This document shows positions 27,308-61,849 of a stretch of 64,000 bases of DNA, piece after piece; position 1 is the first letter of the stretch; every line of letters begins with the position of its first letter. The translations under genes and the position numbers were made by a program. The stretch comes from Tetrahymena thermophila SB210 (Eukaryota > Ciliophora > Oligohymenophorea > Hymenostomatida > Tetrahymenidae): NCBI RefSeq assembly GCF_000189635.1, contig NW_002476412.1, forward strand, positions 124,001 through 188,000. Direction: 5' to 3'. The notes beneath the pieces were generated by a model. The model saw nothing but the letters and a program-made list of their open reading frames with translations, ran no database searches and was not told the DNA's origin.

Positions 27308-30300
27308 ATGATGATACAATAGATTAAATATAAAAGTGTATTAGAAGTATTTATATTTATTTTTTTTATCAATATACTTTAAATTTATTTTTATGAATAT
27401 AAAAAGTTTTTAATTTCTTCACTTTAATCTCATTAGGTTCTCCATATTGATTTGATGTATATTTAATTTATAAATATTATTATTATTAATATTTTCAATT
27501 TATTTAACTTTCAGTTTATTTAAAATATTATTTTTCTAATAGAAATTAATTAATTATCACCATTATTCATTTATTTTATTTACTATAATTATTTTTATTT
27601 ATTTTAACTTAATTATCATTAAAATTTTAAAAATTAATTATCCATTTTTTTTCTTCTAAAAATTTAACTTGATAAAAACAGTTTGTTTGTTTTTTTGCTT
27701 GTTTGTTTTGGATTGTGATATTTTTTTTATAAAATTGAATTTAAAACAACAAAATGTTTTTAATTTGTTAACTTTTTATTTGATTTACTTTTCTTTTTCT
27801 ATTTTATTTTATATGTGTTTTTTTTTGTTCTATCTTTCTTAGTTTAACTAATTTTTTTATTGAGAAAATTTGCTTTTATTACTTATTAATTCACTTCTAA
27901 TTATTTTAAATTTCTTCATTTTTTCTTCTAAATAACTAATTAATTATATATGTTTTCTTCAATATTTAAAAAGTTACAATTAAATTGGTCCAATCAATGC
28001 ATCAGAATTAGGCTCAGCATTAGCAAATTGCACTAATCTCTCAAATTTGACACTTAATCTTCGGTAAAAAAGTTTATTTGTTTGAATTGCTATACTTTTA
28101 TTTACAAAATTAAATTTAAATCAATAAACCTCTTTTTATTTTTTTATTAGTTTATTATTTGATTTGATTTTTTTATTTTACTTGCATTTTTTTTTCTTCT
28201 ATATTCTTAATTTAAATCATTTTTTTATTTTCAACATTTTCTTTTATTATTAATTAATTAATTAATTAATTCATTTATTATTATTTCATATTATTTCTTC
28301 ATTTTTTCCTTTTAAATAAATAACTAATTAATTATATTTTTTTTCTTCAATATTTATAAAGCGGCCATAAAATTGGTGCAAATAGTGCGTCAGGCTTAAT
28401 TTCTTCTTTAAGACATTGCATTTATCTCTCAAATTTGACACTTAATTTTTTGTAAATACATTTTATTTATTTTAGATTGTCATATTTTTATTTATAAAAT
28501 TGAATTTAAATATTATTGCTATTTTAATGTATTTATTAGTTTTTCATTTGATTTATTTTAGTTTTTCTTTTTTATTGTACTTGTATTTTTTTTCTTTTAT
28601 CTTTCTTAATTTAATTCATTTTTTTATTTTCAACATTTTCTTTTATTATTTATTTATCAATTCATTTCTTATTATTTCATATTTTTTATTCATTTTTTCC
28701 TTCTAAATAAATAAATAACTAATTAATTAATTATATATTTTTTTCTTCAATATTTAAAAAGTGGAAATTAAATTTACGCAATTGGTGCATCAGATTTAGG
28801 TCATGCTTTAGCAAATTGCACTAGCCTCTCAAATTTGACACTTGATCTTGGGTAAAAACAGTTTATTTGTTTTGAATTGTGATATTTTTATTTATAAAAT
28901 TGAATTTAAAATAAAATAGATATTTTAATTTATTTATTTATTAGCTTTTTATTTACTTTTCTTTTTATTTTTTATTTTTCTTCTGTTTTTCTTCTTCTTC
29001 TATCTTCTTAATTTAACTCATTTTTTTATTTCAACGCTTGCTTTTATTATTTATTATTCATAACTAATTAATTATATATTTTTTCTTCAATATTTAAAAA
29101 GTCACAATAGAATTGGTGCAATAGGTGCATCAGACTTAGGTTCTGGCTTAGCAAATTGCATTAATATCTCAAATTTGACACTTAATCTTTAGTAAAAATA
29201 TTTTATTTATTTATTTATTAATTTATTTATTTTGTATGGTGATATTTTTATTAATAAAATTGAATTTAAAATAATTATAGCTTTTATAATTGATTTATTT
29301 GTAAGCTTTTTATTTGATTTACTTTTGTTTTTGTTTTTATTGAATAACATTTTCAAAAATTAAAAATGAATCATCACTATTTATTAGAGAAGATTTAAAT
29401 AATACTTAAAAATAAATAAATATAATTAAACCAAAGATTATGTAAAAGATAAAAATTTATTTTTTTATATATTTTGTTTGATATATTTAATGAAAAATAG
29501 TACGTTATCAAAATATTTTTAAAATTTTGTGAAAAAATTACGAAAAATTACTCTCGATTTTTTATTTTCACAATTTTCTTTTATTATTTATATATTTATT
29601 AATGAATTTCTTTATTTTTACATTTTTCTTCATTTTTTCCTTCTAAATAAATTACTAATTAATTTTTTATTTTTTCTTCAATATTTAAAAAGTAACAATA
29701 AAATTCGTGATTAAGGTACATCAGAATTAGGTTTTGGTTTAGCAAATTGCACTAATCTCTCAAATTTGACACTTTATCTTTGGTAAAAATAGTTTTTTGT
29801 TTTGGATTGTTATATTTTTACTTATAAAATTAAATTTAATACAATTTTGATAGCTCTTTTAATTTTTTTATTAGTTTTTTATTTTTATTACTTTTCTTTT
29901 TTTTTATTTTTATGAAAAAGTTGCAATAAAATTGGTGATTAAGGTACGTCAGGCTTAGGTTCTGGCTTAGCAAACTGCACTAATCTCTAAAATTTGACAC
30001 TTAATCTTAAGTAAAAAAGTTTATTTGTTTTTTATTGTGATATTTTTATTTATTAAATTCAATTTAAAAAAATATAGCTCTTTTCATTTATTAATTAGCT
30101 TTTTATTTGATTAACTTTTCTTTTTTATTTCACTTTTGTGTTTTCTTCTTCTTCTATCTTCCTAATTTAACTCATTTCTTATTTTGAACATTTGATTTTA
30201 TTACTTATTAATTTATTTCTTATTATTTCAAATTTCTTTATTTTTTCTTCTAAATAACTTATTAATTATATATTTTTTCTTCAATACTTAAAAAGGAACA

Positions 30301-32468
30301 ATTAAATTGGTGATTAAGGTATATCTATTTTAGGCTCTGCTTTAGCAAATTGCACTAATCTCACAAATTTGACACTTTATCTTGGGTAAAAGCAGTTTAT
30401 TTGTTATTAATTGATATATTTTTGCCTATAAAAATGAAATTAAACCAAAAAAGATAGTTCTTTTAATTTGTTTATTTGTTTTTTATTTGATTTACTTTTC
30501 TTTTTCTTTTTTATTATACTTCTGTTTATTTTTCTTAGTTTAACTGATTTTTTATTTTCAACATTTACTTTTATTATTTTTTTACTCATTTCTTATTATT
30601 TAATATGTTTTCTTCAGTTTTTCCTGCTAATATAAATAACTAATTAATTATTTTTTCTTCAATTTTTAAAAAGTAATAATAAAATTGGTGATTAAGGTAC
30701 ATCAGACTTAGGTTATGCTTTAGCAAATTGCACTAATCTCTCAAATTTAGCACTCGGTCTTTAGTAAAAAGAGTTTATTTATTTTTATTATGATATGTTT
30801 ACTTATAGAAATGAATTTAAAATAATATAACTCTTTTAATTTGTTTATTATTTATTAGCTTTTTATTTGATTTACTTTTTTATTTATTTTATTTGTGTTT
30901 TTTTTCTTTATCTTCTTCATTTAACTCATTTTTTTATTTTCAACAGTTGGTTATAAAATTTATTAACTCTTTTCTTATTATTTCAATATTTTTCTTCATT
31001 TTTTCCTTCTAAATAACTAATTAATTATTTTTTTTTCTTCAATATTTAAAAAGTAGAAATTAAATTGGTGCAACAGGTGTATCAGGCTTAGGTCTTGCTT
31101 TAGCAAATTGCACTAATCTCTCGAATTTGAAACTTGATGTTGCGTAAAACAGTTTATTTTTTGTCTTGGATTGTGATATTTTTACCGAAAAAATGAAATT
31201 CTGATTTTTTATTTTCAACATTTGCTTTTATTATTTATTTATTATTTCATATTTTTTCTTCATTTTTTTCCTTCTAAATAAATAAATAACTAATTAATTA
31301 ATTATATATATTTTTTTTCAATATTTAAAAAGTCGCAATTAAATTGGTGCATCAGGCTTAGGTACTGCTTTAGCAAACTACATTAATCTCTCAAATTTGA
31401 AACTTTATCTTTGGTAAAAACAGTTTATTTGTTTTGGATTGCCTCATCTTTATTTATAAAATTCAATTAAAAAAATATAGCTCTTTTTATTTATTTATTT
31501 ATTAGCTTTTTATTTGATTGATTTACTTTTCTTTTTCTATTTTATTTCATTTCTGTTTTTTTTCTTCTATCTTCTTAATTTAACTCATTTTTTATTTTCA
31601 ACATTTGCTTTATTATTTATTAATTCATTTCTAATTATTTTAAATTTCTTCATTTTTTCTTCAAAATAACTAATTAATTATATATGTTTTCTTCAATATT
31701 TAAAAAGTTACAATTAAATTGGTCCAATCAGTGCATCAGAATTAGGTTATGCTTTAGCAAATTGCACTAATCTTTCAAATTTGACACTTAATTTATGGTA
31801 AAATAGTTTATTTGTTTTGGATTTTGATACTTTTATTTATAAGATTGAATTTAAAACAAAACAGCTAGCTATATTAATATGTTTATTAGCTTTTTCTTTG
31901 ATTTGATTTGATTTGGTTTACTTTTCTTTTACTTTTTATTTTACTTATGTATTTTTTTCTTCTATCTTCTTAATTTAACTCATTTTTTATCATTTCAAAT
32001 TTTTTTTTCATTTTTTCCTTCAAAATAACTAATTAAATATTTATTTTTTTTCAATATTTAAAAAGTTCAAATTAAATTGGTGTAGTGGGTGCATCAAGCT
32101 TAGGTTCTGCTTTAGCAAATTGCACTAATCTCTCAAATTTGAAACTAAATCTTCGGTAAAAATAGTTTATTTGTTTTTGATTATGATGTGTTTACTTATA
32201 AAAATGAATTTAAAAAAATATAACTCTTTTAATTTATTTGTTTTGCTTTTTATTTGATTTATTTTTCTTTTTTCAGCTAATGTTTTTTTTAATTAATTTT
32301 AAATATAATTTTTTATTAAAATATTATATTTTATTTAATTTTTTTTAGTATTTTATTTTAATTTAATATAAAAGTGAAAACTAAATCAATGGATCATAAA
32401 AATTAAAAGTAAAAAGTAAGTGTCATAAATCAAAAAGGTTAGTTGTTTTTAAAATATATTTTTGGTGA
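27308..32468 (+). CDS. LRR protein encoded one repeat per exon (family member A)
   Basis: Fifteen exons: 27308-27346, 27407-27456, 27974-28063, 28362-28451, 28762-28851, 29102-29191, 29693-29782, 29921-30010, 30296-30385, 30674-30763, 31054-31143, 31333-31413, 31708-31797, 32066-32155 and 32375-32468, about 417 residues. Exon 1 is 13 codons and exon 2 is 50 nt. Twelve LRR exons follow, eleven of exactly 90 nt and one of 81 nt. All are flanked by phase-2 introns, and each encodes one 30-residue repeat of the type N.IG..GAS.LG.ALANCTNLSNLTL.L. The last exon is basic with KRLVV. Repeats and introns are nearly alike, so exon plus intron was the unit duplicated. Introns are T-rich, 138-501 nt. No repeat contains TGA. 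The protein should form an extended LRR solenoid without signal peptide or membrane segment; its ligand is unknown. Splice phases agree with the two paralogues in this window. Confidence 0.8.
27652..27682 (+). pseudogene. Relict of a deleted LRR exon inside the second intron
   Basis: Inside the intron before the first intact LRR exon, the segment CTAAAAATTTAACTTGATAA then AAACAG aligns with the end of an LRR exon plus its donor (AAATTTGACACTTGAT..TGGGTAAAAACAG). The exon body and the GT donor are missing. The intron sequence after it still follows the consensus of the other introns. It appears to be a deleted repeat and is not counted in the gene. Confidence 0.55.
29335..29530. other. A-rich insertion in an LRR intron
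   Basis: The intron 29192-29692 is 501 nt, against about 250-310 nt for most of its sisters. The extra part is A-rich on the plus strand, whereas all sister introns are T-rich, so it looks like inserted or foreign spacer. No coding potential was recognised. Confidence 0.5.
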
Positions 32469-33951
32469 TGATAGACAGACAGACAAGTGGTGAAAGGGGA
32501 TGAATAAATATTAAATATTTGAATAATAGAGAATAATATGTTTTATTATATAATATTTTGTAATAAGATAATTTAACCTAAAATATCGATAGATAGATTT
32601 ATTATTATTATTATATTTATGAATATCATATTTATTTATTTGGTAAGTTAATAAATAGCTTATCAAATAAATGAAAATTTACAAATTAAATTTACTTTAA
32701 TAAATAATTTATTATAAAACCAGTTTTTTACCAAAAACAATCAAATAAATCTTTTAATTTTTAATTAAATTTTTTTAAAATAAAAAAATTTAATTGTTAA
32801 TTTTAGATCATTTACCTGTTACTAATTAATGAAATAATAATTTAAAGATAGAAAATAATAAAAAAAAGGATCTAAAGGTGATATGTATGTACGGACTAAA
32901 TCAAAGTGTAATAAGAATTTTTTTACCACAAATCAATAAATAAATCAATCAATCAAATTGATAATATTTGATTTAAATTTTAGATTCAAAAAAGCTTTTT
33001 ATTTTGTATAATTATAAAAATAGACAAGATAGATGTAATTAAATTAAATACTTTATTTGGCTTAAATTAAATTCAAAAAAAATGAGTGGCTGGCTATTAT
33101 ATTCTAATAAACAAATAAATATAAATCAAGTTAATATGTAAGTTAAAATTAATTTCTATCAAAATAAATTTGAAATATAAGCTAAAAACAAACAGTGGCA
33201 CTTCATCAATTTTTGTTAAACGGGTTAATATTTATTTATTTAAAAAAACATCAAATTTTAAATATTCCAATGGTAATTATTGAAATTTATTTAGGTTTAC
33301 ATGTTTTAATAAGTTTTTATTCTTAATATCATTAAAATACTTGCATTTAAAGACAGATTAAATAGATTTATTTATATTTATGTGCAAATTTAAAGATTTA
33401 AAATCTTGCAAGTAGAGTATATTTATTTCAAGACTCTTTGAAATTATCTATAACCAACCATAAATTAAATTAGTTGTTAAAAGTCTTGGATATTTTAAGA
33501 TTAAAATTTATAATTTTTATGGTCTTTATAATTGTAAAATAAATAAAGAGATTGCACTTATTTTTTAGTCTCTCTGTATGAAAGTTATTCAGAATTAATA
33601 AATTTACAATGAAAAATGAAAAAAAATATCAAGGAAAATAAATATTAAAAGATAAATTGAAAAATTTAAGAGTTTTGTTTGAAAAATTAAATTTTTTTAT
33701 ATATAAGCAAATAAATCGGGTTAAAGATTATTTTAGAGTGAAAAAATTCAAATAAAGGTTATCAAAAACAATAATTTAGTTATTGACTGAATTAAAAAAA
33801 GTAATAGTAGTAGAAGAAAACATCAAACATTTATTAATTAATTAATTCAATCTAAAATTAGATTGTAAGATACATAGATAGATAGGTAAATATTAACAAT
33901 AAATAAATAGATAGATAGATAAAAGCTCTAATAATCACTAAGTCAAAAGCC
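32469..33951. other. Intergenic spacer
   Basis: About 1.5 kb, AT-rich, with short GACA and GATA repeats (near 32472-32485 and 33880-33920). No coding frame with recognisable motifs on either strand. Confidence 0.55.
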
Positions 33952-36900
33952 ATGTCATTATTTGAGTGTTGCTCATCCAAATCGAAACCTGCTAGTAGCA
34001 ATTATAATGATTCTAAATTAGGATAGAGTTCTACTACCAAATCTTAGAAAAGGAGACCTCGTGGTTCGCAGTTTAAAAATTATTTATGCTGTAATCAATT
34101 TGGAATTATTTTATTTAATTACTTTCAAATGTTATATTGTTGCAATTTAAACTTAACCCAATAAAAATTTCGCTAGCTTGAAGCGAGGAATTTAAACATA
34201 ATTTTACAGAAATAATTCTAATTTATTTAATTTACCTTTAAAAAAGCCGAAGTAGAAGTGCTAGTGTAGGAACAAGACTTTGAAAGTATTCTCAAAGAGC
34301 TGCTTTACAATTACTCTACTTATAAAAAAGATATAGCAATTAAGATTCTTAACTTTCATGGAAATTTTAAGATCGATTTGTGGTTTAGTTTAGAGCAGGT
34401 AATGAGAGAATTGAATAACATTACGACAATCACATTTTAGAATTGCAAATTGACTAAAGAACACTTGAAAGTTCTCAAAGGATAAATTTTATTTCATAGC
34501 AAGTGTCTTCGTATTGTCTTTTCTTTTAATAATTTGAGTGATCTTGAAATGGATTACTTTATATTTGGTAATAGTGAAGTTATACGTAAGAGAATTTAGG
34601 ATGGTTATCTGTATCTCTATATAGTTAATAACTATGGTGTATTCAAAGAATAATTTATTTAAAAAATATAAACCAAACTGAGTGATTGTGTTCTAGTTTA
34701 TCAAGACTAAGGACTGATATAATTCAATATAAATGGTAAAGATGACATGGAATATAATAGCCATTAGTTTTTTCGTCTGAGCTGCATGAAGTGTATAAGA
34801 CAATCTATTCATTAATTTGCAGACGAAAATATCGTCTCAGATAATAAAATAAGTCCTAAAAAATAGAAATCTCATTTTTCAAATGGAGTTACAAATTAAA
34901 ATTAATATGGAGATTTTTTAAAATAGCTAGAAGATGAGTAAGAATCATAAGAAAATAATGACGAATAAGATGATAATCCACAAAGATGTTTAGAAGCAAT
35001 ACTAGACAGTCTTCTTCCATCAGATCAGCTAAATCCAGTTGAAAAATTAGATTTGGGATATTTATTCATAAGAAATACGAATTTATTGAAAAAACTCTGG
35101 ACAGAAATAGCTTCTTGTTCTTCCATAAGACTGTTATACTTGCATCATTTAGAAGATTACATTATTGACAGTCTTGCACTCAATATTTCCAAAAGAAAAA
35201 TTCACGTTTAAAAAGTAGAATTTACTCAATCAAAAATTAAACCTGAATCATTTAGACATATAATGAAAAATATATCAGCAGAAAAATTAGTACTAGCTGA
35301 TTGTGGTTTAACAAATGAACATTTTGAAGATATGGAGATAGTACTTAAATCAAATAAAAGGCTCCTTCGTTACCTCAAGTATTTATTTATTTATAATTTT
35401 ATTTTTTAATATTGTTAAAGCCAAGCAAATTTATTTTAAAACATTTTCAATTTATAATGAAATTTAATTTTTAAAACAAAATTGTTTATTGAATTAAAAA
35501 AATATTGATAAAGAAAATGAATGAAATTTTTTAATGAATATACTAAAATGATTTCATTAAAATTCAAAAAAAACTATCTCATTCAAATAAAAATGATATT
35601 AATAATTATTTTTACTGACACCTTTAATCACATTACTTATAAATTTATTTTTATTAATAAAATTATTAAATTATTCAGCAAATTTACTGAATTAAATTTA
35701 TAAATATTAATTTCTGAAGAAATAGCATAAAAAGAATTAATTTAAGGTTTATTTTTTTATTGGATTTGAACAGAGTTTGCATAAAAAAGGATTAAATAAT
35801 AAATAAATATATTTTGTTAAGTTATTAATTATTAATTTATATTAGACATTTTGATATTTTTTAACTCTCCCTTTCAAATAAAAATATAACCAACAATTAT
35901 TTTTACTGACACCTTTAATCACATTACTTATAAATTTATTTTTATTAATAAAATTATTAAATTATTCAGCAAATTTACTAAATTAAACTTATAATAATAA
36001 ATTTCTAAAGAAATACCATAAAAAGAATTATTTAAGGTTTATTTTTTTATTGAATTTGAACAGAGTTTGCATAAAAAAGGATTAAATAATAAATAAATAT
36101 ATTTTTTTAAGTTATTAATTATCAATTTATATTAGACATTATGATATTTTTTAACTCTCTTTCAAATAAAAATATAATCAATAATTATTTTTACTGACAC
36201 CTTTAATCACATTACTTATAAATTTATTTTTATCAATAAAATTATTCAGCAAATTTACTGAATTAAATTTATAAATATAAATTTCAGAAGAAATAGCAAA
36301 AAAGAATTAATTTAAGCTTTATTTTTTTGTTGGATTTGAATATAATTTGCTAATAATGAGATAAAATAATAAATAAATAAATATATTTTGTTAAGTTATT
36401 AATTATCAATTTAAATTAGACATTTTGATATTTCTAAAAACGCTGGTGTTGGGAAAGAGGGAATGAAACACTTTGGTGAATATCTTAAAAAATTTGAAAA
36501 TTTGAAAATCTTAATTATGAACAATTGCGAATTAAATGATGATAAAATATCTAAATTGACACTAGAATCCAACGAAGTTAATTAGAATGAATAAATTTAT
36601 AATTTATTTAAATGCTTAGAAATTTTAGATATAAAAGGAAATAAGGATATTACTCCAGTGGGATATAATAAGTTATTTAAATGGTTAAATAAGTTTTAAA
36701 AATTTTAAAGTATTGATTTGTAAGACAATAAAATAAACTCAGCCATTTTAAATGAATTTGCATTGTAGCATTAATTCTTTTTAAAAATAAAAAAAATTGA
36801 TTTATCAAAAAACTCTGACTTTGACGGACAGTCTTTAGAAAAATTTATTGAAATGCTCTCTGAAAGCAACACTTTAACTCGTCTTTCTTTGGAGGACTGC

Positions 36901-39900
36901 TAATTAAGCGATGATATTGTTATAAATATATCTTAATTGCTCCTTAATATTAAGTCTAATGTTCAATAATCACTTAAGTTGCTAAATATCTCCAATAATA
37001 ATTTTTCTAGATAAGACTCTCACTTTATGCTTGCATCATTTTTAATGAAGTGCTCAAAACTTAAATACTTAAATTTATCTAATGTTAATATTAATAATGA
37101 GAATTATGAAAGTTTGGGGAATCTTCTTGATTGTAATATGAATTTCTTACAAAATTTAAAAGAATTAAACATTTCAAATAATACTGAAATTTCTGATGAT
37201 GGCTGGGATTTGATTTTTAGTAAATTAAAAGATTATGAAAATCTAAGAAAGTTAGATTTAAGCAAATGCCAGTTAGGACCTCGTGTTTGTAAAAAAATGT
37301 ATGCTCAATTTGGTAAATCTTGCAGTCTTTATAAGTCTATTACTCATTTAAATATTTCTTAAAATTTTGAAATCAAAGAAGGATGGGAATTCTTAGCTTA
37401 GTGTATTCGTTACTTTGACAGACTAAATATTCTTGACCTGTCAGAAACAATATATTCAGATAAAGATTTAAAGTTTATGGAAAATGCTTTTTAGCCAACT
37501 ATGATGGTATTGAAATCTCCTTCTAACAGAAATGATGTAGCGAAATCTCCTACTAACAGAAACGATGCATGGAAATCTCCTACTAACAGAAATCATAAAG
37601 ATTCAATTTCTTCATCAGAAGTAATTGTACAGTATCCATTAATAAAATCTCTTAAAACACTTATTTTCTCAAATAACCCTTCGCCTAAAAAGGGTTGGGA
37701 TAGCTTTTGGAAAATACTTTCATAATTTGAAAGTTTAGTTGAACTTAACATCACTTCTTGTTTCCTTCAACATGATAAAGTTAAAAATATTGTGTAACTA
37801 ACTCAAAATGCCCATTTTTTCAAAACACTTAAAATTCTTACATTGTTTGGAAATTCTTTTCTAAATCTTGTTGGCTGGATTTATTTATTTGACTGCCTAA
37901 AAAAATGTGAAAAATTAGAAAAGCTAGACTTAAGTTTTTGCTACCTGACAAACAAAAAGTTGATTGCAATATCAAAATTATTGACTAAAAGTCAGCCAAA
38001 CATAACACCAAACGCTTAGCCATAAAATAAATTAACAGAAGAATTCCTTAAAAACAGCTCTCTAAGAAACGTTATCCTAAATGGAAATGACAAAGTAAAA
38101 TATTTTTTATTCTTTAAGAAATACTCTTATAAAAAGATAAAACTGTTCAAGTAAACATCATTCACATTTTAGAATAACTTATAAAAATTTAATTTCAAAA
38201 ATTAGTTTTATCTAAAGCCTTATTTATTTATTTCTTCCTCTACAAATTCTACTTTTATAAAATAATAAAATGAAATATATTAATTAAAGTATATTTTTAA
38301 CTCAATTTTTAGCAAAAAAAGTTTTGAAAACAATTTTGGTTCATAAGCTATAGAAAAAAAATATATTGAATCTTTCTTATATTTACTTTGGGAGGAGGGA
38401 ATTTTATGATTATTTTTTGCATAGACCCCAAACATTTTATTTAATATTTTGAAAACAAAAAATTTTCATATATCAAATGGTATCTAATACCCACCTTTTT
38501 TAATCACTAATATACTAAGATTTATAAATCCAAAATAATATTGATTTTATTTTAGAAAAAATATGGTATTTTTTAATGGTAAAATTGTATTTGATTTTTA
38601 AACATTTTTTTTTGAAAAATAAATATAAAGATTGGACCTATTGGATATAAGAAATTGTTATAAGCACTAACTGGGAGAGTAATTTAAAAATAAATACAGT
38701 TTGAGAATTTAAAAAATTCTGCTAAAGCTGATAATTTGTAAGAAAGAAACTATGAAGAAATAAAAGATCACCTTTTTACCTTAAATAAACTCCCTTAAGA
38801 GTTATAAAAACTTCATTTAAATAAGAATATAAAGATGACTCCTTAAGAACTGGGCTATTTATTTAGATAAATATCTATGTTTTAAAACATAAAAGAGATA
38901 TCTCTATAACACTGCTACTTAAATGACAAAAAAATTGAATCTATTTTAATTTAACTTTAAAGAGAGGCTTCAAAACCTTTAAAGAATTCTTTGCAATCAC
39001 TTGATCTTTCTGGTAATTAAAAAATCAGTTATGTTGGCTGGCTCAAGCTATTCTAAACACTCAGTTCTTGCTTAAACTTTTAAAGAATTTATATGAGAAA
39101 CTGCAATTTGGGAGAACAATAGGTTTTTATATTTTATCTATTCTATTTTTTAATAATTAAATTAAATGCAAATTAACAAATAGATTAGGAGCATAGCAGA
39201 GGTTTTACATGAAAAAGAACATTTGTTAAAAAATTTAACAGATTTTGATTTAGGATGGAATCAAAAAATGACCTCAAAAGGTCTTTAAATGCTTTTTGAA
39301 GTTTTATCAAAATCTTATTTGTAATATTTATCTCTCTAGAATTGTTAACTTGATGATTAAAAGTTCAAACCATTGATTAATGCTCTAAAAAAATCTTAAT
39401 TATCAAAAAATTTATTTACTCTCGATCTCTCGATGAATCCTAAGATTTCTCCATTAAATTGGAAACTATTTTTCTAAAACTTAAATAATATGGAACAAAT
39501 ATCTAATTTGTACTTTTAACACAACAAACTCAATAGTGAAAGATTAACATTTTTATAGTCAGAATTAAATAACCCTAAATCTTAGGTTGGTGATAGGATA
39601 AGATGTATTGAGCTATTAGGTTCAAATAAAGTTAAAGACGTAATATGGGAGTAGTTGTTTAGAGCATTTAAAAATTGTACTTTTTTAGAGAGTCTTGGTT
39701 TGGAATTTTGCAATTTAAATGATAAAATATGCTAAGTAAATTTAAAATGATTTTTTATGTATAAATTTGAGTTATTTTTTATTTATTTTGTAAAGGTTAT
39801 GAATAGAGAATTTACTTCAGAACAAAGTCAATTGACAAATAGTCTAAGGAATTTAAGTTTGCAAGGTAATGACTTGATAAATAAAGAAGGATGGTCAAAC

Positions 39901-42900
39901 GTATTTTAAACTGTTGCTTTAATGAAAGGTTTGTAGAACTTCAATATAAGTATTTGTGAATTGACTGATGAAAAGGTGAGCAGCATTTAAGATGATATTA
40001 AAAAAGAACATCCTATAACTTTTACTTTGCAAAAGATATCATTAAGCTTTAATGCTAAAATTACTAATGAAGGGTGGGATTGCATATTTAAATGCATTTC
40101 TAACTTTAAGTAAAAATAATTATTTAGTTTAAATAAAATAATGCTAATAAATTTAATTCAAATTAGGAAACTTGAAAGCATTCACTTAACGAAATGCGGT
40201 TTGAATGATGAAATATTGTCTAGGATGATCGTTAATTTAAAGGCAAAAGATTTGGTTGGCAAAAGCTTGAAAAAGCTTATTATTAATAATAATTCAAAAA
40301 TTTAAAAGCAAGGCTATATAAACTTAATTTTCTTTTTGAAAAATGATTGCAAATCAATTAATTCTGTTAAAATAGATGAAAATGGAATCGATCAAGAAAA
40401 TTTACAGGACATTGTAACTTAAATTACAGGAAAGACAGTTAAAACTGTAAAATATTATTTTTTTTATTATTTTAATGCTAACTTTTTATTTTATAGAAAT
40501 AGAAAAAGAAATCTCTTGTAGACTTCTCAGACTAGCTCAATAGCATCAAATAAGATCAGAAAATCTAAGATATTGTTTAGGGACTGATTCAAAACATTCA
40601 ACTCAACAAATAAAATTCAAAACAGATAAATTTTATGAAAAAATTCACAATTTAAATGACAGTTAAAGATACAAAATTTTAAGTTTTAGAAGACCTACCA
40701 AAGAGTTTATCCTAGGCTGTTTACAAGCTTAACAAGTATTTTTTGGAAAGCAAGAATCTAAGAATAGAAAAAAATGCATTATAAAATGGAATTATTTACA
40801 ATTTAGGTAATTTTCCTATTGAGATGATAGGCGAACATTTCATAAAATACATAGTAGAGGATAAAAACATACTTTGTTTTACTACAAAAGGACTGAGATC
40901 CTTATCAAAAATATTTGCATATAATATGCCATAAAATGAAATAGAACCATACCCTTACAGAATGATCCTCAATTCTTACAATTTAAAGTATTTTACTAAC
41001 CACATAAAAGAAATCTATATTCTAAACAACTCCTTCGAAAGTGATGTAGAACAATTAACTTATCCTTTCCTGAAAGAAGTATATTAAAACTTCCACAATT
41101 CAGGCATAAACTAGATTCATCTTTAATACACTCTCTCTAGCAGTTTTTTGGAAAGTAAATGAACATAAATATTTTATTTGAATTGAGTTACAATTTTTTT
41201 AATAAAAAAAAGCAATTAAAAATTTTCATAAAAATTCAAAGAAAATTTGTGGATAAAAAAATTTTTTTATAACTTTTCCAAGTTTATTTTTTACTTTAGA
41301 TTTTTTAAATTAAATTTGTCTTATTTCTTTCATAATTCATAGAATAAATTTTTTTAATGTTTATGAAATGCTTGTTGTTTGAAATGTCTATGAATATTTA
41401 TTTATTTGTTTTTGTTAATTTTAAAGGTATTATGCTAGAAGGAGGTGAAAAATATTTAAACTAATTTATCTCTTTACTCCCACCCAAGAGAATAGAATTT
41501 TACTAGAAAATAACTCTGCCTTGCTGGAAATCAATTTACTCTAAACTTTATCATTCTTATGATCTTTAATATGTTAATATGAGTTATGATATTAACTCTG
41601 TTTCTAATGTAGGTATAGCATTTGCTTGGAGAGAGCATATTTACTACAATTATAAACCAACTACTTATATTGGAAGTAAGATTAAATAGCTGATTTACTA
41701 CATTTTGTCTATTTTTGTTTCAGAATCTGTAAAATATAAATACAAAAAGAGAATCTAAAAATTGAATGATAGACTGAAGAATAAGAATTCAATACTTTTC
41801 TTTTTGCTTATTCTAACATTTATTTACTATTTAGTTGCTATAGGAGCTCCTTTCTTAGTTACTTACTATGATATTGATATAAAAAGTTTAGCAGGTGATA
41901 ACAGTGATCGTGAAGTTTGTGAAAAAGGAGTTAATGTAATTGCCCTTATTATTTATTTTGCATTTGCTCTTGTCAGTGCAATAATCGAGCTGTATCTGTT
42001 TGTGTATGTGTACAAAAAGGTAGGCAAGCTATTGCCTGATCCTGTGGAGGTTAATGAGGAAGACAAAAAAAAGGTTTAATCAAAATTAGAATAAATTATA
42101 TTTAAGGCTAAGAAAATTATTAAGGGAAAGAAAAAGTTTTTGATTGGTGTGGCTTTAGTGTAGAGCTAGTTAACGAAATATCATTTATACAACGAAGCCT
42201 GTTTTGTAATAGTCTGCTTTGCTTGTGGATATATACCAATAGGTTCTCTGATGGCAAGTATAATTGCTGGTAATTTGTTAGTCAGTACCTTTAACTTCAT
42301 TAAAATAATAAAGCACATCAGACATAAAAGCTCTCGTCTGTACACAACCTCTTCTTTAAATAAATTTTATGAAATTACAACTCTTTTAGAGTGCGCTGCT
42401 TTGAGCAGTCTCTTAGATTTTGTAGCGCCTTTCAATGTGTGGATTGTTCCTAACAATTGCATAACAAGATATTTACTTCCCAATTTAGCAGGCAAATCAA
42501 TTTCTAATAAGATTTTTAAGTCTTGTATAAAATTTGTATTTGAAGATACACCTTAATTAGTTCTATCTCTAATATTCGTTATTCTAAGATCAGGTAACGA
42601 AGTTAATCAAAACGCTATAATTGCTATGATCATGAGTGCAATAAGTTTAGGTGTCTCCACATACAATTTCTTAAGTATAAGACCATCAACTATATCCCAG
42701 TTAGATTTTAACTAGCTTGTAGAAAAATAGAGCGAAACTTACATACAAAAAGCATATGATACAATTGCTATGGAGAGTAAGCAAATAGCAGAGTGGCGAA
42801 ACCACTACCTCGAAAACAAAGCAATTAGCATGGATGTAATTCCTCAAGAAACAGCTGATGCCATTTCAATGCCCTTACAAATAACATCAGAGTATAAATT

Positions 42901-51430: not shown

Positions 51431-52228
51431 ATGAAAGGTTAATTAGAAGAAGAAGATATAATGTGCATAGTTTGCCAAGAGGTACCTTCAAATGCCCATA
51501 CTTCTTCATGCTGTGGATGCGTTCTATGCGAAGATTGCACAAGTTTGACATTAAGAAGCTCAAAATTTTGCCCACATTGCAGAAATTAAAATCCTAAATT
51601 TGAAAAAAATATGTATCTCATAAAGCTAATAAATAAATTTCCTGTAATCTGCAAATATGAATGTGGTCACGTTTCATAAGTATCAGATATCAAAAACCAC
51701 TACAAAAATTGTCCAAAAAAAATGTATTCATGCTCTGTTTGCGAATATTAAGGAAAGCAATAAGATTTTTTCAACCATATTACAAGTGTTCACAAAGATG
51801 AAATAATGTAGAAATTTGACAAATCTATAGAAGAATAATCAAGGACCCCTAGCATTTCTGTACAGAAAATTGATCCTTTGTTAGAAGTAAAGAATTCAAA
51901 GGGAGATATATGTCATATTGGAAGGACTTCTAAGTTCTTTTGTGGTAAAACTGTAGGACACAGGTGTAATACTTGTGATGGATAATGTGGTCCTGATGAT
52001 GGATGCAATTGTCCTCCGTGTATGGAACTAGACTTAAAGTATAGAAATTTGTAAGGTAAGAATGCTCTGGTAAATGCAGAAGGAAAAGTAGCATTTCTCT
52101 CAAAGGGATCTTTTTATTGTGGTACATTGAATGATTCTTATGGTAAATGCGGATAAATTGGTTATAAGTGCCGTTTTTGCACATCCTTAACAAGCGATCT
52201 ACCCTATTACAAACACTTACTATAATGA
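51431..52228 (+). CDS. RING/TRAF-like zinc finger protein with conserved Cys-rich C-terminus (copy 3)
   Basis: Single exon of 265 residues, closely similar to the gene at 49255 across its full length. It keeps the same RING cysteines (CIVCQ..CCGCVLCEDC..CPHC), TRAF-like stretch and CGPDDGCNCPPC-MELDLKYRNL module. The start differs. The ATG used by copy 2 has become a non-ATG codon here, so translation should begin at the second methionine (51431), right before the EEED of the RING finger. Several sense codons of copy 2 are TAA here (for example in CDGQCG and NLQG), silent or conservative under the ciliate code. The frame is intact, so this is an expressed-looking duplicate, not a pseudogene. 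Confidence 0.85.
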
Positions 52229-53031: not shown

Positions 53032-55692
53032 ATGAATAAATAAGAAATTAAATTTTCAGATCTAAAATAAGTAAGGATATAAATTATATTAAAATATATT
53101 TTTTCTTTTTAAAAAATAAATAGTTTGAAGGCTCATCTTTGCATACTCATACTAATATTACGCTTTTTTTATGGTAATTCATTTTTCAAAATAAAATAGG
53201 CAATATTAAAGTAAAAAAACATTAATAAAAGGAAACTTTAAGATGAATTTACGATTAATTTACTTTTCTCTCTCTTAGCTAAATGTTCATCTCTCTAAAG
53301 TTTAAATTTATATTTAAAGTAACAAATAATTTTTAATTTCGAATAGAAAAAATAAATCCATAAATTAGATAGAAATTTTCTATTAAAAACTTTATTTTGA
53401 TAAGAAAATCAAATATAATTATTTTATTCTCTTTATTTTTTAATTTGGTAAAACAATATCTCATAAAATTATTAGCTATTCTCGATTTTAAGATAAATAA
53501 GCATCTAAATTAGGCTTAGCTTTAGCAAATTGTGAATATCTAGAGTCTTTAAACATATGTTGCGAGTATATATATACATTTAATAATTATTTATTAATTT
53601 ATTAGTCATTTTTTTTTAATACTTAAATGTTTAAACCGTATTGCTGCTGTTTGATTCATTACTTATTTAATATTAATTTTAATTAATTTGACCTAAAGGT
53701 TAAGTAACATTAATGATTAAATTGCTTGTGATTTTGGTTCTGGTTTACAAAGCTGTAAAAAGTTATCTATATTAAGACTTAAGCTTGGGTAAGAATTTTT
53801 TTTCTCTACTAATTGCAAAAAATAAATTAGCTTTCTTTAAAATTTAAATATTTAATATTTTTAAAAGTAAAATTTTGAATTATTTATTAAACTAACTATT
53901 GAAAAGAGATAATAAAATTGGTGATAATGGGGCATTTGGATTAGTCTCTTCTATTTAATCATGCAAAAATCTATCAACTTTGGAAATTTATTTTAAGTAT
54001 CTTTAATTTTTATGATGAATTTATTTTGATATTATATTTCTTTCTTCTTCACTGATTTATTATAGAATTGAATCATTTTATATTTGAAATACAATTTATA
54101 AACTTGTTTTCAAATAATAATAAAAAGCTAAAATGAAATTGGTGATACTGGCTTATCTAAATTGTCCGGGGAGCTAAGAAATTTTGAGAATCTTTTAGAT
54201 TTAAATCTATCTTTTTAGTATAAAATATTGAATTTTAAGATTTATTTATTTTTTTACTGTAAATATAAAATATTTTATTTTATCTTTGCTTTATTACTAA
54301 GAGAAATAATAATTTAATTTTTCTTTGATATTCTATCTATTTTTGAAATTTATTTATAATAAAAGTGATAACAATAAAATAAGTTCTAGAGGTATATCTG
54401 GTTTGGCTTCTGGTTTAGCTTAATGTGTGAATCTTTAGAAATTAGGATTAGAATTATCTAAACATCCAGAGTAAAAGCAGAATTTATATAAATTATTCCT
54501 AAATTTATTTCGATTTAAATAAATATTTTATTCAAAATACCTTTTCAGAAATTTCATTATCTAATATTTACTTAAAGAAGGATTTAAAAATATAAAATTT
54601 CTTAATTTTGTTTAGCCTAAAACTAAACTAAACAATAGATATTACAATATAATTAAAATATTTAGAATGGTTTAATTTTAAATTAATATACTAATATTAT
54701 TATTTAATTAACAAAAAATTTCAATAACTAACCATCAATCATTAACACTTTGTTTGTTGTTTTTTGATCTATATTAATATATTTATAAATAAAAAGTTAA
54801 TGGAAGGGTTCAATTTTAGTAGATTCTTAAGCTTTAACTTGTTTAGGAACTTCTTTAGCTAAGATATAAACTTTGATGATTAATTTAAAGTAATTAATTA
54901 ATTCATCCATTTCATTATTTTCTAAAAAAAATTTAATTACAAAAATATATATTTTGTTTATTACTATAATAATTATGAAATTAATAACTTGATAACATAT
55001 TTAAAGCAACAATTACTTTAGAGATGATGGTCTAATTGGTTTTTGCTCAGGTTTGGTAAATTGTGCAGGACTTACAACTTTAAATATGTCATTTCGGTAA
55101 AATTAATTATTTAATATTTTAAAAATTTAATCTTAAATATCCTAATAAATAAATATTAACTAATTAGCTAACTAACAAAATTGAAAATTCATTTATCAAT
55201 TAAAATACTATTAAGAACAATAATAAATAATCTATAATTTAAATTATTTCTAAATTTATTTAGAGAGAACGAAGTTAGTGGAAAGGGTATCTTAGTCTTT
55301 AGCTCAGCATTATAAAAACTTGCTCAATTATTATTTCTCTATTTAGATTTTAAGTTAGAATTTTTTTTATTACTTAAAAAAAATATTTTTATTGATTTTT
55401 TGAAAAAATTTTTTCATTTATTGTTATTTCAATAGTTAAAATTAAATTGACGATAATTCTACACTAAGTTTCATAAAAAGCTTGGAAAATTGTCTTCAAC
55501 TAAGAGTTTTAAATATAAATATTAGGTTAGCTTTTTTGATTATTGTATTTGTAAGTAGCTACAATTTCTAAAATCGTATTTTTTAAATTTAAAAGCGATG
55601 AGAGATCAATATCTGTTCGTCATTAACTGAAATAATAAATATTGAAAAACTAAAGATTAGTTGTAAACAAATCTTTTATTGAAGGTATTTGA
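53032..55692 (+). CDS. LRR protein encoded one repeat per exon (family member B)
   Basis: Thirteen exons: 53032-53070, 53124-53173, 53232-53318, 53476-53565, 53699-53788, 53907-53996, 54128-54217, 54366-54470, 54797-54889, 55007-55096, 55264-55353, 55436-55525 and 55596-55692, about 366 residues. Exon 1 is 13 codons (MNKQEIKFSDLKQ) and exon 2 is 50 nt, the same sizes as in member A. Ten LRR exons of 87-105 nt follow, six of them plus one more exactly 90 nt, all in phase 2. The repeats are far more diverged than in A, for example LALANCEYLESL, GLQSCKKLSIL and SLENCLQLRVL. The terminal exon is basic with the motif KNQRLVVNK and a TGA at 55690. Conservation of exon size despite diverged sequence argues for a functional gene. 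Likely a soluble LRR solenoid. Confidence 0.78.
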
Positions 55693-57368: not shown

Positions 57369-58743
57369 ATGGATTCTGTTATTGGTTAGATTGTATCGAT
57401 GGGCTACGATCAAGAGTTAGCTTAAAAATGCTTTAATGCTACTAAATCTACTGATTTGAATACAAACATCGAATGGATTGAAAAGCATCTTGAATAAGAA
57501 GCTATAAAAGAATCATTAAAGGGAACCGAAGAAGGATAATAATAACAACATTAGGAATAGAAACCAGCTGAAGAAAAGCCAAATGAAGAAAGCAAGGAAA
57601 ATAACGCTGAAGGAGAATAATAAAAATGGGGTCCTATTTCTCATTTAGTCGATCCCCTTATGGTTGCACAGCTTTAGGACATGGGTTTCTCTAAAAACGT
57701 TTCTGAAAAGGCTATCTTCATGACCTAAGATTAAAAGACTTTGGAAGCTGCTCTTGCTTGGACTGGTACTATAATTTTTCTCTTTTAAAATTAAATAAAA
57801 TGATTACAATAATTACATTAGCAATTAGAGTGAAAATTGAAATCATTCTAATGTTTTTTAGGATAAAAATTTCATTTTTTTAAGATAAAATTTTTAAAAT
57901 AATCAAATAGAAAAGCATTAAGGAGATGCTGATTATGAAGAATAACTTTTGATGTAAATCACTGATGAAACAAATAAACCTAAACTGAGTGAGGCAGAAG
58001 CTAGATAAAAAGCTAGGGAGTTGCAAAACAAGTTGCGTGAAGAGAGAAAAAAGAGAGAAGCCCAAGAAGAACTCGATAAAGAAAAGAGACGTATTATGTC
58101 TGGTAAATCAATGGGAGATGCTTAGAGAGAAATCTAAGAATTGAAAAAGAGATAAGAAGCTCTCTAATTAAAGCAACAAAGAGAATAAGATGCTATTGAC
58201 AAATAAAGAATGTTAGAGCAACTATAACGTGATAGAGAAGAAAGATTTGGCAAAAAGGTAATAATTATTTACTTTTTTAAACCCTTATTTAGATTTAAAA
58301 ATAAATAATTTAAATACAGTTCGCTGGCAGTAAACCAACTGAATAATAAGCTAAAGAACCTACTCCTTTTGAAAAATTCTAGGTTGGTATTAAGCAAGTT
58401 AAGACTGCTCATCCTAGAAACATTTTCTTAGACAAAGCACAAGTTTGTTTGAAGACCATCTAAATTTACATTTGTAATTAAAATAAAAGGATTCATCAAT
58501 AAAATATTATTTTTTTTAATAATAGAAAACATAGTCAATAACCCTACTGAAGAAAAGTTTAGAAAGATAAATCTTGAAAACAAGGCTTATTAAACTAGAG
58601 TTGGCGAGTGTTTTGGAGCAAAAGAAACACTTTTATACTTAGGGTTTGTAGAAGAAGGAACATTTTTAGCCAACCATAATCCTAACTTTGAAATTCTTAA
58701 GCAAGCTTTAACATTCTTGGATAAAGAAATTTCAACTAGTTGA
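57369..58743 (+). CDS. UBA/PUB-domain protein (predicted p97/Cdc48 and ubiquitin adaptor)
   Basis: Four exons: 57369-57765, 57911-58257, 58320-58473 and 58526-58743, 371 residues. Residues about 3-43 form a first UBA domain (IVSMGYDQELAQKCF). After a Gln/Glu-rich linker comes a second UBA (about residues 95-135; LQDMGFSKNVSEKAI). A long charged coiled coil follows (KLREERKKREAQEEL), and the C-terminal 110 residues form a PUB/PUG domain (NPTEEKFRKINLENKAY, then GAKETLLYLGF). Family knowledge: UBA binds ubiquitin, and PUB binds the C-terminal tail of the AAA ATPase p97/Cdc48. The protein should therefore bring ubiquitylated clients to Cdc48, as UBXD1/SAKS1-like adaptors do. No UBX domain is visible. 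The intron after exon 3 is set by the Q-N-I-V-N-N-P continuation of the PUB domain. Confidence 0.88.
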
Positions 58744-59522
58744 AGGGTTTAATAAAAAAGAAATATAAAATAGTAATATAAGTTAGTTAAAATCTTTAGT
58801 TAATCAAATAAATAAATATGTAGATATTTCTAATCTATTTTGCCTCAAAAAAATAATTGTTATAAAAAATCTAATTCATGCATTTTCTTTATCATTTTCA
58901 TATATAAATATTTTTTAATTTTAAAAATGAAATTGTTTATGACATATAAATGAATTTTAAATTGATTTTCTTAACATAAATTAAGAAACAAAGCTATTAT
59001 ATTATTACAGTGATTCATAATTAATTTAGGGTTGGTTATTTTTATTATAAGTAGTAAGAAAAAATTCTAATTTATTAAAAGTCTTTCAATTTATTTAATA
59101 TGCATTTTAAAGATATTAGTTAGTGTTTGTTTGTTTTTGATAATATTCAACTAATATTATAGTGAACATCAATAAAAAAATTGAGGGTATTAAATTTAAT
59201 AATTCTGCTTTAATTTTTATAAATATTTTAAATGAATTTAATTAATAATTAGTAAATACTGTAATTCTCATTAATTAATATCTCTCTCTACTAGTTGTTT
59301 TTTTCTTATTATCGGTTTTTTTTGACTATTTTGAAGAAAAAATACTACAAACTAAAAACCCTGATAAAAAAGGATTTGTAACTTTTAATATTTTATTTTT
59401 AAATTAATATTTGTTGTAAATGTTTAATACTGTAAATAATAAAATATATATTAATAAATTTATTAATTCTTGATTAGCTTAGTAATAGTTATAATTAGTA
59501 AAATTTATGTTGATATTATTTT
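58744..59522. other. Convergent intergenic spacer
   Basis: AT-rich spacer between the 3' end of the UBA/PUB gene (+) and the 3' end of LRR member C (-). Nothing recognisable. Confidence 0.55.
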
Positions 59523-61849
59523 TCAAAAATATAATTAATAATTAACCAATCTATTTATTTTTTTGAACATTCTAAGCAATTTTTATTTTCCTTCTTCATT
59601 AATCTGATTTTGCCTATTCATAAAATAAAATATTAATATAAATATCTTTTTTAATTAAGATTGATATCAAAAAACAAATTTAATCTTATAATTTACTAAT
59701 AAAATATTTCAAAAGTAGAAAAATTTTATAATAAAAACAACGATATTGAATTTCTAATATAAATAGATATTCTCTAAAGATATTATAAAAATATTAACTT
59801 TATTTATGCTTTCGATTTAAAAGCGAATAAATGCATTTACCTGAATTCCAGTTGTAAAGTATAGAGTTACCTACAATTTATCAGTGAAGAACATAATTTT
59901 TTAGCTCCTTTGTAGCTGATATTATTCCAGCTTTAAAATTAGACACATATTAAAAGTTAATTAATATGCGATAAAATGTTAAGAAAAATAAATAACTTAT
60001 AAAAATTATAAATAATCATTAAATTAAATGAAAATATTTTAATCAAATTAATGATTTACTCTGCATTAATAAAAATTTGATGTAAGGTTTTATTATTTGA
60101 GAATGCCTATCCTATTTCATATATACCCTCATTTCCTATTTCGTTATCGCTATAATAAATTAAATTTTAATTCCTTTAAAAATTTAAAAAACCTTAGATA
60201 TAGAATAAGTGATTTTAGTTGTTTTATTTATCCTAATCCTTATGATAAACTCTTAATTCCTGAATTTTTTAAGGAGTTTTAGCTTATTAATTATAAACAA
60301 ATATTAAAATAATCTTAAATATCTTTAAAGATAAAAAAAAAACCTTAAGATTAGTTCTAAATATTCTAAATATTAGAACTAAGCAATTTATTCGCTTATT
60401 TTATTGAATTCTTCCCCTTAAATTTGATTTTATCTTTTTAAAATTTAATAAATGATTTTATTAATTTTAATGATTTAACATAAAATTAATTTATAATTTA
60501 TTACCCTAAATTTAGTAGTTACTAGATTCCAATGTTTGTAATTTCATTTTCTCTAAATAATATCAAATTAAATTTATGATACAAATTATTTAAGTTACAC
60601 TAAATAAAGTTCAAGATGAGTAAGAAGTGAGCATTATCTAATCTAAATACCTAAATCTAGCAAATTATCCCCAATTTAATTAGAACTTTTTTATTTTTTA
60701 AACATATTTTTTATTAAATCTAAAAAATTTGTTTCAAAAATATTTACTCAAATTAAAGAAGAAGCTTTTTGAGATTTTTGCAGTTTTTTAATCCTGACAT
60801 TTAAAGTGGTTATTAATAAGTGCCTAATTAATTTGAGCTTTATTTTATTTTAAATATTTTAAAATAATATTTTAACAATAATTAGAATTTACTAAAAAAA
60901 TAGCTTCAAAGAAGTTAGATTCGAGATTTTTCCTAAAACTTGGCTAATATTTTCAACTGCTTGATTAGAAATCAGTGTATGCCTTTTTTTATAATATTTG
61001 ATTAGAGAGTAAAAGATTTATAAATACCACAAAAATTATATAAAACAAAAATCTTAAATTAAGAAACAATAATAAATTTTCAATTTACTCTAAAGTAATT
61101 ACTAAATCTAAAAGATTGCAGCAAAATCTTAAAAACTGAGCTAAATTTTCTACACCCAAATCTGAAATTTAATTGTGACTTATATTTATTTTTTTATAAA
61201 TGAATTTTTTTTATGAATTAACAAACTAAAAATATAATCAATCTATTTAGAATTCTAAATTAAAATTGAAATAAATACAACTGTAACAAATTCATATTTA
61301 CCCTAGATAAATTTCTAAATTAGATAAGTCTAGCTCCTAAAGCATTTTGCCTAAAAAAATGAGGCCCAAGTCAGTAATTAGGTTACTCCTTTTAGTAAAA
61401 TAATATGCTGAATTAATATAATAATAATAATATAAAATTAAATACTCTAGATGCAGGATTAATTTAACCAAACTTTTTTTTTGAATAAGTTTTTCGCATA
61501 AAACTTATATCCATTTATCATTTATCTAGTTATAGCTTTTAAATAATTAAAATTTCTATTGAAAATAATAAATATCTACGCTAAATTTAGATTTAATTAT
61601 TTTATATTTTTGTACTACTCAAAGTTTTCACTTAAATTTTATAAATTTTATTCATCTAATTGAAGGTACCTAAGGCAAAAAAAATAATAAATGGTATATC
61701 TTCAAAATAAAATTTAGAATTATACCCGAAATCTAACTCTATATCTTCAATATCAAAATTAGTGCTATCTATGAACTTTTTATGTTGAAAAGTTTTTTAT
61801 TTTAATAACAAATTAAATAAATAAATACTTCTTTAATAGTTGAGAACAT
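59523..61849 (-). CDS. LRR protein encoded one repeat per exon (family member C)
   Basis: Fifteen exons, 5' to 3': 61829-61849, 61726-61775, 61580-61669, 61446-61535, 61302-61388, 61089-61178, 60893-60982, 60748-60837, 60599-60685, 60505-60552, 60344-60433, 60193-60282, 60060-60149, 59841-59930 and 59523-59613, about 397 residues. Exon 1 is only 7 codons (MFSTIKE). Exon 2 is 50 nt, as in members A and B. Twelve LRR exons follow, nine of exactly 90 nt, two of 87 nt and one half-repeat of 48 nt, all in phase 2. Repeats include GIKSLSQGLGQIKQLKSLIL and LKNCKNLKKLLL. The terminal exon reads QNQINEEGKQKLL then KKINRLVNYQLYF and TGA, the same ending as member A. The gene lies on the opposite strand to A and B and converges on the UBA/PUB gene. 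Some donors are GTTTTT or GTGTAA-adjacent, so single splice sites may shift by a few bases. Confidence 0.75.

Follow-up and report, generated by a model that had tools for sequence, protein, structure and literature searches.

How are the three leucine-rich repeat (LRR) genes A, B and C, which lie in a 64,000-nucleotide stretch of Tetrahymena thermophila SB210 DNA (the window), built, to which family do they belong, and what might their division into small, phase-matched exons allow? A first-pass annotation had described them as sharing a tiny first exon (39, 39 and 21 nt), a second exon of exactly 50 nt, ten to twelve repeat exons of mostly exactly 90 nt bounded by phase-2 introns, and a terminal exon with an R-L-V motif, and all of these elements were recovered in open frames. 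Read with the ciliate code, each gene, spliced as predicted, gives a single open frame (417, 360 and 397 aa in A, B and C, respectively), with a first intron in phase 0 and all introns after exon 2 in phase 2. The repeat exons number 12, 10 and 12, and the 34 together are divisible by three without exception, making the layout frame-neutral, as had been claimed; 27 of them (11 in A, 7 in B and 9 in C, with runs of at least three in every gene) have exactly 90 nt. Exon 2 is the sole open 50-nt candidate in each gene.

Gene A lies on the forward strand at 27308-32468. Its exon 1 (27308-27346, 39 nt, MMIQQIKYKSVLE) ends in phase 0, and its exon 2 (27407-27456, exactly 50 nt, FLISSLQSHQVLHIDL, phase 2) is a half-repeat N-cap that ends in the strand register of the repeat; there follow the array of 12 repeat exons (27974-32155), eleven of which have 90 nt whereas the exon at 31333-31413 has 81 nt, with phase-2 introns of 138 to 501 nt between them, and the C-cap, a terminal exon of 94 nt including TGA (32375-32468, ENQINGSQKLKVKSKCHKSKRLVVFKIYFW). 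Gene B, on the same strand (53032-55692), has exon 1 at 53032-53070 (39 nt), exon 2 at 53124-53173 (50 nt), ten repeat exons within 53232-55525 and a terminal exon of 97 nt including TGA (55596-55692). Seven of these repeat exons have 90 nt (53476-53565, 53699-53788, 53907-53996, 54128-54217, 55007-55096, 55264-55353 and 55436-55525); the first (53232-53318, 87 nt) is weak and uncertain for its low profile score, as are the sixth and seventh (54384-54470, 87 nt; 54797-54889, 93 nt), which fell outside the scored cassette chain and were picked by eye. Gene C, on the reverse strand (61849-59523), starts with exon 1 at 61849-61829 (21 nt) and exon 2 at 61775-61726 (50 nt), continues with 12 repeat exons between 61669 and 59841, nine of 90 nt, two uncertain ones of 87 nt (61388-61302 and 60685-60599) and one, likewise uncertain and picked by eye, of 48 nt (60552-60505), and finishes with a terminal exon of 91 nt including TGA (59613-59523). 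The terminal exons, chosen by eye in all three genes, carry R-L-V within KRLVVF (A), QRLVVN (B) and NRLVNY (C). Two stretches of telomerase exons aligned to T. thermophila 6d6v with zero mismatches, and over them the genome is indistinguishable from that species.

The seed for cassette chain scoring included exons of A, B and C, and independent tests came from profiles trained outside the window or with one gene left out. At a score of at least 15, a profile from 72 outside cassettes matched all 11 exact-90 exons of A, three of seven in B and none of nine in C, against no matches in 30 dinucleotide shuffles of the whole window. Profiles trained without B or without C, at a score of at least 0, recovered 7/7 and 9/9 of the exact-90 exons of the gene left out, and all 27 exact-90 exons are recovered by left-out profiles; 300 shuffles per region gave at most one match (B) or none (C), and over the whole window, on both strands, the totals were 29 (B left out) and 28 (C left out). 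In eight other arrays, 72 of 74 cassettes were exactly 90 nt long, in a search that allowed 75-105 nt and penalised lengths other than 90; the genome-wide cassette search scored 34 among 988 candidates. Two other genome-wide counters were discarded, namely, Pfam LRR_6, which is too short and divergent (two matches among 150 scored of 280 candidates), and a 29-aa query from C, equally insensitive (six matches including itself).

The 90-bp-exon cassette architecture was already known before the present analysis. Thousands of LRR genes with 90-bp exons and phase-2 introns have been described from ten Tetrahymena species, the exons being backed by RNA-seq, and in T. thermophila 1,500 of 1,874 LRR genes contain the 90-bp exon, from 1 to 51 per gene (Xiong et al., 2019, PMC6564038). 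The same paper reports age groups and ectopic recombination, young genes with long introns and an intron-length peak of 257 bp, and proposes exon shuffling and a role in recognition; the notion that cassette number diversifies these proteins, also advanced in the first-pass annotation, is thus in print. Genes A, B and C share with this family one LRR per exact 90-bp exon, phase-2 introns and a variable cassette number, and each shows, in a Tetrahymena genome, at least three consecutive exact-90 LRR exons. We put the probability that they are members, with the anatomy given above, at roughly 0.85. Judged from its introns (median 288 bp, 82-97% alike in aligned columns), A fits the young group III, and B and C, with medians of 133 and 61.5 bp, look older than A. 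The median over the sampled arrays, 283.5 bp, differs from the published peak.

In its main text, Xiong et al., 2019 (PMC6564038) appears to treat neither the 50-nt second exon nor caps, site-wise selection or alternative splicing. In our genes an N-cap (exon 1 plus the 50-nt half-repeat exon) and a C-cap (the R-L-V exon) flank phase-2 cassettes that vary in number, and we surveyed caps around chains of at least four cassettes outside the window (eight chains, loci L054-L059). An exon-1-like peptide (MIQQIKYYxxLEE-like, 36-39 nt) lies upstream of five of the eight, with no counterpart found for L058 in the 530 nt searchable there. Six have a 50-nt exon-2 counterpart, in a search restricted to that length which also surfaced two unrelated open 50-nt stretches (L054, L056); none was found for L055 (589 nt to the contig end) or the first L057 chain (35 nt). 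For three of the eight, namely, the second L054 chain (171 nt left), L056 and the second L057 chain, a search of up to 900 nt yielded no R-L-V exon. For DNA of the gene A caps, each of the 40 places scored was a match, its own locus being one of them, both for the N-cap (27300-27470; 579 first-look candidates) and for the C-cap (32340-32475; 116 candidates). End caps around most sampled arrays would be an addition to the published family description.

What kind of protein is encoded? Pfam found only LRR families in spliced A, B and C, with matches below cut-off in B and LRR_6 at 39.7 bits in C, and found neither NACHT nor kinase domains. The majority residues over 250 cassettes, LxLxxNxIGxxGAxxLxxAL, follow the ribonuclease-inhibitor (RI) class consensus LxxLxLxx(N/C)xLxxxgoxxLxxoL quoted in Hoss et al., 2019 (PMC6642158), the first L of which aligns to Asn 24 of the cassette, adjoined by Leu 22 and Leu 25. 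A hydrophobic N-terminus or membrane segment was not found in any of the three, the best 19-residue hydropathy being 1.1 in A, 1.6 in B (borderline) and 1.4 in C, and by hydropathy alone the proteins look cytosolic. Each gene codes for a small solenoid of RI-class repeats, probably cytosolic. The analogy with receptor systems drawn in the first-pass annotation is weakened, as Pfam gave no domain other than LRRs and hydropathy showed no hydrophobic N-terminus.

The introns between cassettes always interrupt the repeat in the same place, immediately behind the conserved LxLxL strand. Over 250 cassettes, positions 1, 30 and 28 vary more than any other of the 30; they lie on either side of the splice junction, on the strand predicted to bind, and core positions are conserved. 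Exposed positions of this strand face the ligand in LRR proteins. This placement of the most variable surface on the splice junctions would be a second addition to the published description.

Site-wise selection was estimated by pair-counting, IQ-TREE codon models having been dropped for their implausible tree lengths, on the 244 of 250 cassettes kept by a score cut-off and in three pairings that share the same cassettes. Core positions gave a dN/dS of 0.32 in the three pairings, on cassettes collected by likeness to A and profile score, which lowers core variation. Exposed-strand positions gave 1.87-1.91 when scaled by gene-wide dS, and 1.12 (0.83-1.55), 1.25 (0.99-1.61) and 1.27 (1.05-1.60) when scaled by dS of the same positions, values which neutral drift could also produce. 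The exposed set follows the published RI consensus but was named after variability had been viewed, and it includes position 25, a conserved leucine; the rate of codon 30, which finishes in the next exon, is inflated. Intron-scaled ratios are not counted as evidence, as intron windows below 70% identity were excluded, lowering the intron yardstick, and no weight is given to simple pooled dN/dS of cassette pairs (0.75-2.19 per gene; 1.06 within A, 1.16 between genes), given the extreme base composition.

Cassette relatedness bears on how such arrays may change. As shuffling between genes predicts, the exact-90 cassettes of A (n = 11) are often nearest to cassettes outside A: six to one of another sampled gene, three within A and two tied. 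The closest pair within A is cassettes 1 and 11, ten apart and 90% identical (the next best for cassette 1 is 82%), but their introns, 92% alike against 93-97% in other A pairs, do not single them out. Germline unequal crossing over or gene conversion would add, remove or swap cassettes with the frame intact, and each new cassette junction would also bring residues 28, 30 and 1 together anew. Intron 4 of A carries a dispersed-repeat insert of about 220 bp (29340-29570, forward strand), conceivably a remnant of the REP retrotransposon, which is absent from the other aligned A introns. It has 40 further genomic matches, some of which are pieces of one place; among 19 other fetched copies, a cassette lies within 1.5 kb of eight (two marginal, score 6) and of none of the remaining 11. 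Many AT-rich inverted repeats, mostly 70-90% paired, occur at this insert.

Tentatively, and with slightly less than even confidence, we favour the reading that these proteins have binding partners which are diverse or changing, possibly bacterial or parasite parts, under selection that holds the core and lets the binding strand vary. Its main competitor, which we consider unlikely yet the strongest of the rivals, contests this functional step only: repeat recombination and adjacent insertion of REP retrotransposons would have expanded the family in a neutral or selfish manner, with no common role in recognition. The introns of A are indeed no more diverged than its exons (82-97% versus 69-90% alike, in gapped alignments), and whole-cassette dN/dS is 0.80-0.90, both as such expansion would have it; however, the constrained core, the open frames of all three genes, repeat-exon lengths in multiples of three and the caps retained in most sampled arrays argue against it. 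That the genes simply encode structural LRR proteins, of the cilia or the cortex for instance, in which repeat number drifts freely, appears distinctly improbable. At least three of the seven solved-structure sequences matching A have ciliary names (dynein regulatory complex subunit 5, flagellar associated protein and radial spoke protein 15), but the best match (E 5.4e-12) is named merely leucine-rich repeat protein and the matches resemble general LRR likeness; moreover, variability concentrates on the predicted exposed strand, and one would not expect a structural component to have some 1,500 members that change fast. That B and C are decaying relics, A-type genes alone being functional, is equally improbable, since the odd or weak exons of both (48, 87 and 93 nt) and the position of B below every Pfam cut-off are outweighed by frames that stay open across 12 (B) and 14 (C) splice junctions with both caps kept, by the LRR_6 score of C and by shorter introns that match older genes of the published family.

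Two other LRR systems come close to this architecture. Human NLRs carry NACHT and effector domains, whereas LRRs are the sole domain found by Pfam in A-C. Lamprey variable lymphocyte receptors (VLRs), secreted or anchored and somatically assembled, hold LRR modules between fixed caps and so form diverse surfaces; A-C, known here from one assembly, resemble them in the enclosure of LRR modules by fixed caps. Human NLR genes, including NLRP3, also encode RI-class LRRs in exons that share an exact length, with the exon border at a constant beta-sheet site and modules that can be skipped, but their exons are of 171 bp and encode two repeats each, as opposed to one 30-residue repeat in Tetrahymena, and skipping of NLRP3 exon 5 yields an inactive isoform (Hoss et al., 2019, PMC6642158). 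The VLR system of jawless vertebrates is named in the same paper.

Exon skipping has a peculiar record in T. thermophila. Skipped exons are few (139 events in Xiong et al., 2012; a set is also given by Grau-Bove et al., 2018) and their flanking introns average 279 bp. A broad survey reported an animal-like multiple-of-three bias among them, and in no other organism outside the animals. Both the bias and the flanking intron length would be expected if 90-nt LRR cassettes were being skipped; the 279-bp mean lies near the 283.5-bp median of sampled cassette introns. That skipping in this organism acts chiefly on LRR cassettes, which would account for both features, is nonetheless a doubtful proposal. 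Less likely still is a bolder variant in which alternative DNA excision during macronucleus formation changes the number of cassettes somatically. If cassettes were skipped, one gene would give several solenoids with different surfaces. With caps at both ends, cassettes that can be exchanged and the variable surface located at the junctions, this architecture would let recombination alter the binding face and leave the protein unbroken, and the same would hold for exon skipping, if it occurs.

Translated with TAA and TAG as glutamine, three leucine-rich repeat (LRR) genes in the AT-rich ciliate DNA of the window, as its composition has it, namely A (27308-32468, + strand), B (53032-55692, +) and C (59523-61849, −), each give one open spliced frame. 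First, in A, exons of 39 and 50 nt precede twelve repeat exons, eleven being 90 nt long and the other 81, and a 94-nt terminal exon closes the gene. Second, B opens with exons of 39 and 50 nt, followed by ten repeat exons (seven of 90 nt; 87, 87 and 93) and a terminal exon of 97 nt. Third, C has exons of 21 and 50 nt, twelve repeat exons (nine of 90 nt; 87, 87 and 48) and a terminal exon of 91 nt. Introns are in phase 0 after exon 1 and in phase 2 thereafter, with AG acceptors and GT donors (GTTA at two B donors, GTTT at two C donors and GTA at the remainder). In the assembly searched (101 Mb, 445 contigs), the telomerase frame shows no mismatches with T. thermophila PDB 6d6v within two aligned exon stretches, differing just at their ends, where it apparently enters introns; the genome is taken here as T. 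thermophila or one that this stretch does not separate from it.

Statistical support for the repeat exons, here called cassettes, was obtained with two profiles. The first, trained on 72 cassettes from outside the window, recovered at a score of at least 15 eleven cassettes of A, three of B and none of C, with zero matches in 30 shuffles of the window. The second omitted B or C from training and, at a score of at least 0, recovered all exact 90-nt exons of the omitted gene (7/7 in B, 9/9 in C) among 29 and 28 matches in the whole window, respectively, against a maximum in 300 shuffles of one match for B and none for C. The architecture proposed by the first-pass annotation, namely a tiny exon 1, a 50-nt exon 2, 90-nt phase-2 cassettes and an R-L-V end, is borne out. 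The finding is real, with three B exons and some C exons uncertain.

The variable-cassette architecture, also rightly recognized there, matches a family already published: Xiong et al. (2019; PMC6564038) report LRR genes by the thousands from ten Tetrahymena species, in which exons of exactly 90 bp follow one another in tandem and the introns are in phase 2. The family count that the annotation had proposed is likewise in print, at 1,500 of 1,874 T. thermophila LRR genes, each holding between 1 and 51 of these exons. If the species is T. thermophila, A, B and C are three among some 1,500 members and no private trio. Their best protein alignments reach only 35% (A-B), 32% (A-C) and 31% (B-C) identity. 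The same paper describes three age groups, ectopic recombination and an association with the REP retrotransposon. With repeats at the DNA level and introns whose median length is 288 bp, A fits the young group III, whereas B and C look older by their shorter introns (medians of 133 and 61.5 bp). Two long open frames with LRR matches and no 90-nt exons (36388-38409 and 39166-40587, both +) have LRR_6 scores of 41 and 32.1 bits, above cut-off, although the part 39757-40587 reaches 21 bits, below it; together they are perhaps an intron-poor LRR gene resembling the old group I, as that paper outlines it.

Compared with eight arrays sampled elsewhere in the genome, six of the eleven exact 90-nt cassettes of A are nearer to one in those arrays, three are nearer to another within A and two tie. 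Within A, cassettes 1 and 11 of 12 are the closest pair, with 90% identity, and lie ten places from each other. The introns upstream of these two share 92%, which does not set the pair apart, since other A intron pairs reach 93-97%. These affinities agree with the published shuffling and are no further proof of it. Within the second intron of A (27457-27973, +), a new cassette-intron copy starts near 27675 with no recognizable cassette exon ahead, and a second intron of about 470-530 bp is also found in six other arrays; this stretch might be what remains of a cassette that the ancestor of the family lost. Intron 4 of A holds a dispersed repeat of about 220 bp (29340-29570, +) with 40 further genome matches at 67-88% identity, and 11 of 19 other copies fetched had no cassette within 1.5 kb.

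The caps flanking the cassettes recur. A 50-nt exon 2 of the type FxNSSLxSHxxLxI lies upstream of six of the eight other arrays, five of these six having an exon 1 of 36-39 nt like MIQQIKYYxxLEE, and an R-L-V terminal exon lies within 900 nt in five of the eight. A search with the DNA of A's N-terminal cap had 579 candidate places, and one with its C-terminal cap 116; in each, all 40 places scored were matches, so that both caps have at least 40, A itself counted. Since the 50-nt exon ends in the strand register of a cassette end, and the terminal exon starts cassette-like (xNQI in A and C), the caps interlock with the cassettes. Their description is an addition to the published account.

Variability was mapped on 250 distinct cassettes, a sample biased toward A-like ones passing the profile. 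The most variable of the 30 positions are 1 (3.69 bits), 30 (3.45, n = 189), 28 (3.00) and then 7 (2.90), and variation is least at Ile 4, Leu 25, Leu 12 and Leu 27. From LRR structure, we take positions 26, 28, 30 and 1 of the strand to be exposed; in the RI-class consensus quoted in Hoss et al. (PMC6642158), they are the strand x positions. The intron thus splits codon 30 amid the variable face, which is determined at every cassette-cassette join. In three cassette pairings (76, 106 and 79 pairs), dN/dS was 0.32 throughout for the core and 0.80, 0.84 and 0.90 for the whole cassette. The exposed set gave 1.91, 1.89 and 1.87 against gene-wide dS, but when scaled to its own dS the ratios were 1.12, 1.25 and 1.27, and 1 lies within two of the three intervals. 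This shows a constrained core and a strand without such constraint, and positive selection on the exposed strand is suggested rather than demonstrated. The reported whole-gene Ka/Ks median of young LRR genes is about 0.4 (PMC6564038), and the site-wise location of variation is an addition to that account.

Two published oddities would both follow from skipping of cassettes, given their 90-nt length and introns with a median of 283.5 bp (IQR 266-301; 66 introns, A-like arrays). Xiong et al. (2012; PMC3274533) count 139 events of exon skipping in T. thermophila; the introns concerned have a mean of 279 bp, more than in any other of the four splicing classes, and the authors call the determinants not clear. 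A term search of that paper's main text returned no 'leucine-rich'. Grau-Bove et al. (2018; PMC6142364) report an animal-like multiple-of-three bias of skipped exons in T. thermophila alone (p = 2.18e-5), for which no explanation was found in the text examined. No paper linking these oddities to cassettes turned up in the open literature, where Tetrahymena exon skipping with leucine-rich repeats gave one Paramecium paper and Tetrahymena LRR gene exons, from 2019 on, gave Xiong et al. (2019) alone. Against cassette skipping, 139 is a small number of events set against the thousands of cassettes estimated in 1,500 genes, premature stops occur in 25-33% across all event types (PMC3274533), and near-identical cassettes are prone to mapping errors.

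Above cut-off, Pfam returns LRR families alone in A and C, and the best match in B is LRR_6 at 19.2 bits, under the cut-off of 23.4. Hydropathy finds no hydrophobic N-terminus in A, B or C, with a 19-residue maximum of at most 1.62 (B is borderline), so judged from sequence they are most likely cytosolic binding proteins. Elsewhere in the window, a 2,251-aa open frame (11092-17847, −) has many WD40 matches at about residues 1500-1960 and a NACHT match of 25.3 bits, just under the cut-off of 26.7, so that a NACHT-WD40 protein likely shares the window with the LRR genes. The frame at 7645-9579 (+), with eIF3_p135 and TPR matches, is presumably CLU-like, and two further frames (18926-20038, − and 51431-52228, +) have sub-threshold Sina zinc-finger matches, the latter with a sub-threshold RING match too.

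Microbe recognition would be a plausible role of A, B and C, and a recognition role has been proposed for the 90-bp-exon genes (PMC6564038). On the whole, the observation is correct and the system it concerns already known; a few points that can be tested are added to it.
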